NCBI GenBank assembly: GCA_015234525.1
Contig: JADGMX010000041.1
Coordinates: 248,001 to 312,000 of the forward strand
Direction: 5' to 3'
Origin: Flavobacterium sp.
GTDB taxonomy: Bacteria; Bacteroidota; Bacteroidia; Flavobacteriales; Flavobacteriaceae
DNA: 64,000 nt
The position numbers were made by a program, and so were the translations under genes. Each line of letters starts with the position of its first letter. Position 1 is the stretch's first letter. Below the pieces are notes generated by a model. The model was not told where the DNA came from. It did no database searches and saw only the letters and a program-made list of their open reading frames with translations. Below, piece after piece: positions 2,652 through 64,000 of the stretch.

Positions 2652-3140
2652 ATGGCCACAGCAAATAAAAATCTTTCAGAATACGACAAAAATGCAATCC
2701 CAAACGCGAAGGACATTCGGTTTGGGATTGTTGTTTCTGAGTGGAACGATCACATTACCAACGGACTCTACAATGGTGCTGAAGCGGCACTATTAGACTG
2801 TGGCGCGGTTGCCGAAAATATTATTCGGTGGAACGTTCCCGGGAGTTTCGAGCTGATTTACGGCGCGAAATTGATGTCGCAAGCCCGAAATGTAGACGTG
2901 GTGATCGTCATCGGTTGCGTGATTAAAGGCGAGACGCTGCACTTCGATTTTGTGTGCGATGGCGTTACCCAAGGAATCAAGGACCTCAATGTTCACGGCG
3001 ATATTCCGGTCATTTTCTGCGTATTGACCGATAATAACGAGCAGCAATCAATCGATCGAAGCGGTGGTGCTCACGGCAACAAGGGAACCGAAGCCGCAAT
3101 CGCTGCAATTAAAATGGCGGATTTGCGTCGAAACGCGTAG
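2652..3140 (+). CDS. ribH: 6,7-dimethyl-8-ribityllumazine synthase
   Basis: RibH condenses 5-amino-6-ribitylamino-uracil with 3,4-dihydroxy-2-butanone 4-phosphate in the penultimate step of riboflavin synthesis. The 162-residue length is normal. Family motifs are GSFELIYGAKLM, GCVIKGETLHFDFV (containing the catalytic histidine) and PVIFCVLTDNN. It starts one base after the TPR gene stop. No other riboflavin gene is nearby, so the pathway is scattered in this genome. Repeat element R1 begins six bases after the stop codon. Confidence 0.95.
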   Translation: MATANKNLSEYDKNAIPNAKDIRFGIVVSEWNDHITNGLYNGAEAALLDCGAVAENIIRWNVPGSFELIYGAKLMSQARNVDVVIVIGCVIKGETLHFDFVCDGVTQGIKDLNVHGDIPVIFCVLTDNNEQQSIDRSGGAHGNKGTEAAIAAIKMADLRRNA

Positions 3141-3145
3141 TTTTT

Positions 3146-3260
3146 GGGCGTTACCTGCGGCCCGTGCTGTTCGCTGCAATCTTTTTTAAGCCAGATATCA
3201 GTTGCCATTATTTCACATTCCAGGTAGCTTAAAAAGGATTTCCGCTTCCATCACTAACGC
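3146..3260 (+). repeat. Dispersed structured element R1 (subtype A)
   Basis: First of twelve related intergenic elements. The ends pair as GCGTTA (3148-3153) with TAACGC (3255-3260). The core is GCTGTTCGCTGCAATC, then a hairpin arm CTTTTTTAAGC (3181-3191) facing GCTTAAAAAG (3227-3236), then GGATTTCCGCTTCCATC. It lies on the sense strand six bases after ribH. Confidence 0.8.
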
Positions 3261-3343
3261 GAAATGTGATAATGTAACAATGTAGCAATGTGGAAATGTA
3301 GCAATGTGGAAATTTCACAATTTGGAAATTTGAGAATTTGAAA
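3261..3343 (+). repeat. AT-rich quasi-tandem repeat tract
   Basis: Imperfect 8-16-base units such as AATGTAGCAATGTGG and ACAATTTGGAAATTTGAG are reiterated. Together with R1 this fills most of the 329-base gap between ribH and mutL. The 16-mer TGGAAATGTAGCAATG (3291-3306) recurs exactly at 62830-62845. The ORF called here on minus (3229..3429) is repeat sequence and not a credible gene. Confidence 0.75.
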
Positions 3344-14536: not shown

Positions 14537-14642
14537 AATGATTTGATTTAAATTAGTAATTATTTCTTTTTCACTAATGTAAATTTAGGACAATCGAGTA
14601 GGGCAGATTTTACACGATTTTGCTAATTAGTTGCAATATTGT

Positions 14643-14716
14643 GCGTTAGGGATGGGAAGCGATATCCCGTAGCATCGCGGAGGATTTAGCGGACAGCCCG
14701 GCCTTCGGCAACGCCC
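14643..14716 (-). repeat. Dispersed structured element R3 (subtype A, short)
   Basis: On the minus strand it reads GGGCGTTGCCGAAGGCCGGG, CTGTCCGCTAAATCC, then a short hairpin and GCTTCCCATCCCTAACGC. The ends pair GCGTT/AACGC. It begins 25 bases after the mutB stop on the same strand. At 74 bases it is the shortest copy. Confidence 0.75.
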
Positions 14717-14741
14717 GAATCATCATCAATATGCCATTTCC

Positions 14742-19702: not shown

Positions 19703-19786
19703 GGAGCCTGATCCTGCTGTTCGCTATTATCTTTTGCGCTTCCGGTGGTCGCTCAAAAGGATAGCCGCTACCATCAGGGCTAGGGC
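19703..19786 (+). repeat. Dispersed structured element R4 (subtype B)
   Basis: Outer pairing AGCCTGAT (19705-19712) with ATCAGGGCT (19773-19781). Core CCTGCTGTTCGCTATTATC, hairpin CTTTTG...CAAAAG (19731-19759), then GGATAGCCGCTACC and CTAGGGC. It lies between the divergent udk and SDR genes. Confidence 0.8.
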
Positions 19787-26528: not shown

Positions 26529-26610
26529 TGGCAGACATTTCCTGCTGTTCGCTGTATCTTTTATAAACCAAAATGTTTATAAAAGGATGCCGCTTCCATC
26601 AGGGCTGCAA
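26529..26610 (+). repeat. Dispersed structured element R5 (subtype B)
   Basis: Outer ends GCAG (26531-26534) and CTGC (26605-26608) replace the usual AGCT/GGCT pair. Core CCTGCTGTTCGCTGTATC, perfect 11-bp stem CTTTTATAAAC/GTTTATAAAAG with a 6-base loop, then GGATGCCGCTTCCATCAGGGCT. It lies between divergent genes. Confidence 0.8.
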
Positions 26611-39218: not shown

Positions 39219-39308
39219 GATCAGCCCCTAGCCCCGATTGAAGCGAAAATCCTTTTTATCCCGAAGGGTAAAAATATTGTAGTGAAAAGCGGGAATCAGC
39301 TCCTGATC
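39219..39308 (-). repeat. Dispersed structured element R7 (subtype B)
   Basis: On minus: GATCAGGAGCTGATTCCCGCTTTTCACTACAATATTTTTACCC-TTC-GGGATAAAAAGGATTTTCGCTTCAATCGGGGCTAGGGGCTGATC. The ends GATCAG/CTGATC and the inner CTGATT/AATCGG both pair. It lies between the two minus-strand genes, sense with both. Confidence 0.82.
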
Positions 39309-62780: not shown

Positions 62781-62845
62781 GGGAAATTTGAAAATTTGAA
62801 GATTTGAAAATTAGCGGCCGGAGGTAATTTGGAAATGTAGCAATG
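62781..62845 (+). repeat. AT-rich quasi-tandem repeat tract, second copy
   Basis: GGGAAATTTGAAAATTTGAAGATTTGAAAATT followed by AATTTGGAAATGTAGCAATG. The 16-mer TGGAAATGTAGCAATG matches 3291-3306 exactly. Downstream, AAACCTAACA occurs twice before the FAH start. Confidence 0.7.
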
Positions 62846-62910
62846 AGCACCTTTCTTCTCCTTTTAGCCAAAACCTAACAGCCGAAACCTAACACCCAAA
62901 ACCCAAAAGA

Positions 62911-63866: not shown

Positions 63867-63874
63867 GATTATTT

Positions 63875-63961
63875 GGGCGTGCCCTTTCAGGTCGGGCTGT
63901 TCATTCCCATCTTTTTTGGCTTATCAGCACAAAAAAGGATGTCCTTTTCCATCCCTCACGC
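63875..63961 (+). repeat. Dispersed structured element R12 (subtype A)
   Basis: GGGCGTGCCC-TTTCAGGTC-GGGC, then TGTTCATTCCCATC, stem CTTTTTT with AAAAAAG, GGATGTCCTTTTCCATCCCTCACGC. Ends pair GCGTG (63877-63881) with CACGC (63957-63961), where R1 has GCGTTA/TAACGC. It begins eight bases after the Hpt stop on the sense strand. The last 39 bases of the window show no further feature. Confidence 0.8.
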
Positions 63962-64000
63962 ATTGTCGGTACATCAGCGCGTTTCTAAAATTTTCATCCT

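Follow-up and report, generated by a model that had tools for sequence, protein, structure and literature searches.

The window analysed here, a 64,000-nt stretch of a Flavobacterium sp. genome, contains a gap between a ribH-like ORF and mutL, the closest matches of which were from Flavobacterium species. This gap holds an element, R1, whose outer end lies 2 nt past the stop codon of the ribH-like ORF. R1 was identified as a copy of Flavo-1 (Rfam RF01705), matching on the minus strand at 3265-3156 with 50.2 bits against a gathering score of 42. With the Rfam covariance model, the window gave 11 Flavo-1 matches and the whole genome at least 150 copies. The end of the ribH-like ORF (window 3120-3150) consists of GCGTCGAAACGC and a T-run, continuous with the TTTGG end of the element. 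Directly adjoining R1, at 3263-3332, is an 8-bp minisatellite with AATGTAGC / AATGTGGA units, which also occurs at 62826-62855; similar octamers were found next to other Flavo-1 copies as well. Coordinates of R1 and of the other copies discussed below are given in Table 1.

Table 1. Repeat copies in the window and their structural parts.
Feature	Window coordinates	Strand	Basis
R1, complete subtype A (P1, P2, P3 and CCAAA tail)	3143-3261	-	covariance model including ends, 81.3 bits
R1 P1 5' arm, GCGTTA	3260-3255	-	sequence and pairing test
R1 P1 3' arm, TAACGC	3153-3148	-	sequence and pairing test
R1 P2, long Flavo-1 hairpin, base GTG/CAC	3164-3254	-	core-only model match; Rfam alignment
R1 P3, small hairpin GGCCGCAGG, 3' side between P2 and P1	3154-3163	-	pairing data
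R1 CCAAA tail after P1, where conservation stops	3143-3147	-	information content, 73 copies
R3, subtype A	14642-14719	+	covariance model including ends, 62.3 bits
R3 P1 arms	GCGTT 14643-14647 / AACGC 14710-14714	+	sequence
R3 inner helices	P2 14649-14699; P3 14700-14709	+	
R12, subtype A	63872-63962	-	model including ends, 90.3 bits; Rfam 45.4 bits, partial
R12 P1 arms	GCGTG 63961-63957 / CACGC 63881-63877	-	
R12 inner helices	P2 63894-63955; P3 63882-63893	-	
R4, subtype B	19706-19785	-	Rfam, 61.6 bits
R5, subtype B, CAGC/GCTG-like minority variant	26534-26610	-	Rfam, 70.5 bits
R7, subtype B	39226-39300	+	Rfam, 65.8 bits

Flavo-1 was described as a candidate RNA of Bacteroidetes (Weinberg et al., 2010; PMC2864571) and carries the Rfam type sRNA gene. 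A transcriptome study of F. psychrophilum gave no clue to its function (PMC9723704), and a review of 2022 names it without a function (PMC9029176). Its Rfam structure, which R1 shares, is the P2 hairpin with regular internal loops. The Rfam consensus of 76 nt resembles subtype B, lacks P1 and P3, and leaves the first and last eight positions unpaired, which places the outer helix considered here outside the Rfam structure. In subtype A, by contrast, the ends form P1. The Rfam model covers this subtype only in part: of the 15 subtype-A copies in a 140-kb sample it recovered 7, and R3 gave no Rfam match even at E ≤ 0.1. Counts and context studies based on Rfam are therefore incomplete, with about half of the sampled subtype-A copies missed.

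A preliminary description of this DNA had reported that the ends of R1, R3 and R12 pair, with a coordinated T-to-G and A-to-C change in R12. All three pairings and the double change were found in the sequence. A first covariance model had been trained on eight copies including their ends, so that the copies it finds are partly selected for pairing. For the main test of P1, a core-only model was therefore built from the P2 hairpin core alone; applied to 757 kb of the present genome it yielded 76 copies, with 25 more from elsewhere, and all were assigned to subtype A or B from the 5' side only. With the arm set to 7 nt and the region compared with it to 50 nt, the mean complementary run among 22 subtype-A copies of this genome was 4.91, compared with 3.76 after permutation (z 6.0), and the observed mean was reached by none of 5,000 permutations. 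When a longer 3' region was used, 29 of 30 subtype-A copies carried in their 3' flank a sequence exactly complementary to the first five bases of their own arm. The corresponding number in 10,000 permutations had a mean of 9.3 and a maximum of 19, and between subtype-A copies with unlike arms an exact complement occurred in 8% of cases. Most subtype-A copies that at first looked unpaired had a longer P3.

At least 12 kinds of P1 arm sequence, each with its own partner, were found in several families of the order; further arms in other genera and families (GCATG, GCGAT, GCAAT, GCGTA) were likewise always partnered. Within P1, in copies of this genome and of the genus, position 3 was GC or AU, position 4 UA, CG or GC, and position 5 GC, UA or CG. 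On these sequence comparisons, a predicted outer stem with compensatory changes is strongly supported for subtype A, both within this genome and in the genus and further families of the order. The predicted stem is 5-6 bp long, and its sequence appears free provided that the two arms pair.

The extension of this idea to subtype B, in which the outer helix had been proposed to be replaced by other pairing sequences in R4, R5 and R7, fared less well. The letters are present in these copies, but pairing in the common B variant (5' TAGCC) did not exceed the control, with a mean run of 3.41 versus 3.37 after permutation. Covariation of the end helix and pairing beyond shuffled controls thus hold for subtype A and not for common subtype B. 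In R4 the outer pairing takes up the CTG at the base of P2, so that it and the main hairpin are mutually exclusive. The six-base pairing of R7, GATCAG/CTGATC, lies outside the region in which B copies exceed the control. R5 belongs to a minority B variant with a CAGC/GCTG association. In this minority (5' CAGCC), GCTG stood opposite in 7 of 8 copies, and a G at that place was found in none of the copies with T; it is a single C-G association, perhaps of one lineage. Apart from it, core-found subtype-B copies contained no covarying helix equivalent to P1.

P2 is separated from the 3' arm of P1 by P3, a hairpin whose size varies between CC-GCA-GG and over 80 nt. P1, P2 and P3 are together predicted to form a three-way junction closed by P1. 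In a 47-copy alignment, 95.4% of cells were paired, and 18 of 23 pairs had changed on both sides; when the partner was slid by 1-3 columns, pairing fell to 32-46%. All five helices of the fitted structure covaried (138 doubly changed cells, 0 of 500 shuffles), although, as this alignment was fitted to the structure, the permutation test on core-found copies is the cleaner evidence. Minimum free energies of single copies, folded as RNA, were uninformative, with z values of 0.10 for R1, 1.33 for R3 and -2.73 for R12.

P1 also bounds the repeated unit, as both conservation and pairwise similarity stop at the edges of P1 and CCAAA. Across 73 copies, information content was about zero from 3 bases upstream of P1; after P1 it was high over the five bases CCAAA and then fell. 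When copies from different genomes were aligned by BLAST, the alignments commonly began and ended at the same two edges, and two B copies of one genome were identical over 91 nt with different flanks. The P1 edge and the CCAAA edge thus give the element the defined ends expected of a MITE. The core of the element is the known Rfam Flavo-1; the preliminary description had recognised neither this nor P1 as a junction-closing stem and unit boundary. The few papers that a search of mainly open literature turned up held no description of P1, P3 or the second repeat type discussed below.

Copies were predominantly intergenic (68 of 76 outside predicted ORFs) and randomly oriented to co-directional neighbours (16 sense, 20 antisense). 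Copy number within the genus ranged from 0 to at least 65, and in most of 80 relatives the ribH-mutL gap contained no element. GC skew gave no clear pattern of replication strand bias. Some elements occur as inverted, BIME-like pairs less than 300 bp apart (G000:C41:19126/19271 and 42235/42432; C49:42799/42965). A search for a long autonomous version gave none in the 1.56 Mb covered, with 757 kb from this genome and 800 kb from two relatives.

These distributional features, together with the sharp ends and the empty orthologous sites, favour a reading in which R1 is a copy of a short, dispersed, intergenic mobile element that is read by its fold and resembles REP or MITE elements. We consider this reading somewhat better supported than all others combined, with a probability of about 0.55. 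The paired P1 arms, the covarying helices and their recurrence in other genera and families support it as well. The Rfam motif is one part of a larger, three-armed fold, and it is probably by this shape that the element spreads through genomes. The element would be non-autonomous. A single strand would fold into the three-way junction of P1, P2 and P3, followed by a single-stranded CCAAA tail. By analogy with REP elements and their transposases, an enzyme encoded elsewhere would recognise this folded strand by its shape, that is, by the junction and the tail and not by arm sequence, and would place copies in intergenic DNA; complementarity of the P1 arms would then be maintained through selection by this enzyme. 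Recognition by sequence is disfavoured because the P1 arms vary with pairing kept and do not form a fixed terminal inverted repeat.

The main rival reading, which we regard as unlikely but worth serious weight, is a functional non-coding or cis-regulatory RNA in untranslated regions, the copies of which spread because they are useful. Such an RNA would be expected to show the compensatory changes seen in every helix, and some 5' transcribed regions of F. psychrophilum do overlap Flavo-1 matches (PMC9723704). In the same study, however, matches were sense or antisense alike and many lay outside transcribed regions (PMC9723704). The random gene orientation, the highly variable copy number and the empty orthologous sites in the present data also speak against a regulatory role.

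The types of base pair divide between the two readings. P1 contained no G-U pairs in 233 cells and none in 22 more copies, although exact-match A copies are free of G-U by construction. In tRNA stems of the same data, for which ARAGORN brackets only pairs, 45 of 721 cells (6%) were G-U. As both counts are constrained in this way, the comparison is suggestive only; a P1 without G-U would fit selection for pairing as DNA, or selection on both strands, which favours mobility over a regulatory RNA. Conversely, P2 contained 20 G-U cells versus about 3 A-C (one misaligned pair left out), and this tolerance of G-U is compatible with an RNA fold and counts against the mobile reading.

A bidirectional transcription terminator or stabiliser of 3' ends was considered improbable. 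It would account for an excess of copies between convergent genes (19 of 67, compared with 29 of the 187 gaps that span 120 bp or more) and for a position nearer to stop codons than to starts (median distances 35 and 86 nt). In most relatives, moreover, the ribH-mutL gap contains a separate canonical terminator, where the present genome has a weak hairpin and the element. Terminators were called in 17-18% of gaps with an element versus 24-34% of other gaps, but the gap differences were not significant (p 0.06-0.6) and masking shortens gaps. No U-tract follows the hairpin of the element; an intrinsic terminator was called in 5 of 76 elements on the Flavo strand and in 10 of 76 on the other; divergent gaps hold copies too; and the purT element described below has a separate terminator beside it. 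Insertion next to terminators was rejected, with 17 of 102 tail sides carrying one, no more than element-free gaps. An integron attC reading was rejected as well: the order of the GTT/AAC boxes is reversed, and they are not conserved.

Evidence against the mobile reading also came from another locus. Between two genes that we take, from their sequences, to be aspC-like and purT-like, at least 17 Flavobacterium genomes carry an element, identically placed and oriented in each. In these elements P1, the P2 foot and the P3 foot were kept, and the distal P2 arm was of four or so unrelated kinds; for most of the divergent ones there was no Rfam match. The fixed position and orientation beside purT, with P1 pairing preserved, counts in favour of a regulatory RNA; the site looks like retention, perhaps with a function. 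One kind of P2 arm, GTTTGAGC...GCGAGTGC, is itself dispersed, with up to six copies per genome, and 26 of the 150 genomes compared contain its pattern. When this second repeat type was collected through its inner arm, the P1 arms paired in 26 of 28 copies, with a permutation maximum of 20. As judged from these sequences, this pairing provides an independent replication of the predicted outer helix, which ties Flavo-1 to an unlisted type of repeat whose inner arm is unrelated. A dispersed element that shares the P1/P3 frame but differs in its P2 arm (GGCTTTGTTTGAGC...GCGAGTGCC) had no Rfam match in the copies tested.

These observations raise the tentative, on balance doubtful, possibility that Flavo-1 belongs to an unrecognised superfamily with a shared covarying frame (P1, P2 base, P3 and CCAAA) in which whole P2 arms are swapped. 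Its members would be moved by an enzyme able to read a folded single strand, and the same aspC-purT site would carry other arms in other species.

A further rival reading makes the element a REP element of the genome's own RAYT. In its size and dispersal, its hairpin form and its occasional inverted neighbours the element fits this reading, and one Y1_Tnp gene is present. This only Y1 transposase (RAYT-like) gene is located at G000:C49:131725-131943, where part of its 3' end is also repeated. The palindrome on its flanks, present in three copies, is however a different one, CAAAGTCGGGAGACTTTGCGCAGC. Genomes rich in Flavo-1 without a Y1 gene exist, as does the reverse, and Y1/RAYT presence did not track copy number. 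That Flavo-1 is the REP element of this RAYT is therefore very improbable, and no mobilising enzyme was found among the genes considered. No function has accompanied Flavo-1 in the lists that have carried it since 2010; the outer helix now makes its nature testable: P1 gives the true ends of the element and poses the question whether an enzyme reads the junction or a transcript acts.

Among known systems, the MITE-like repeats BOX and RUP of pneumococcus (PMC3049150) are likewise non-coding, intergenic and mobile-looking, with defined ends; unlike these, Flavo-1 has P1 arms that are no fixed terminal inverted repeat. REP/BIME elements with their RAYT are likewise short, structured intergenic repeats, present in hundreds of copies and both orientations and with covarying hairpin arms. 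Whereas a REP/BIME element is a simple hairpin, Flavo-1 is predicted to form a three-way junction with an exchangeable P2 arm, and it showed no association with a Y1 gene.
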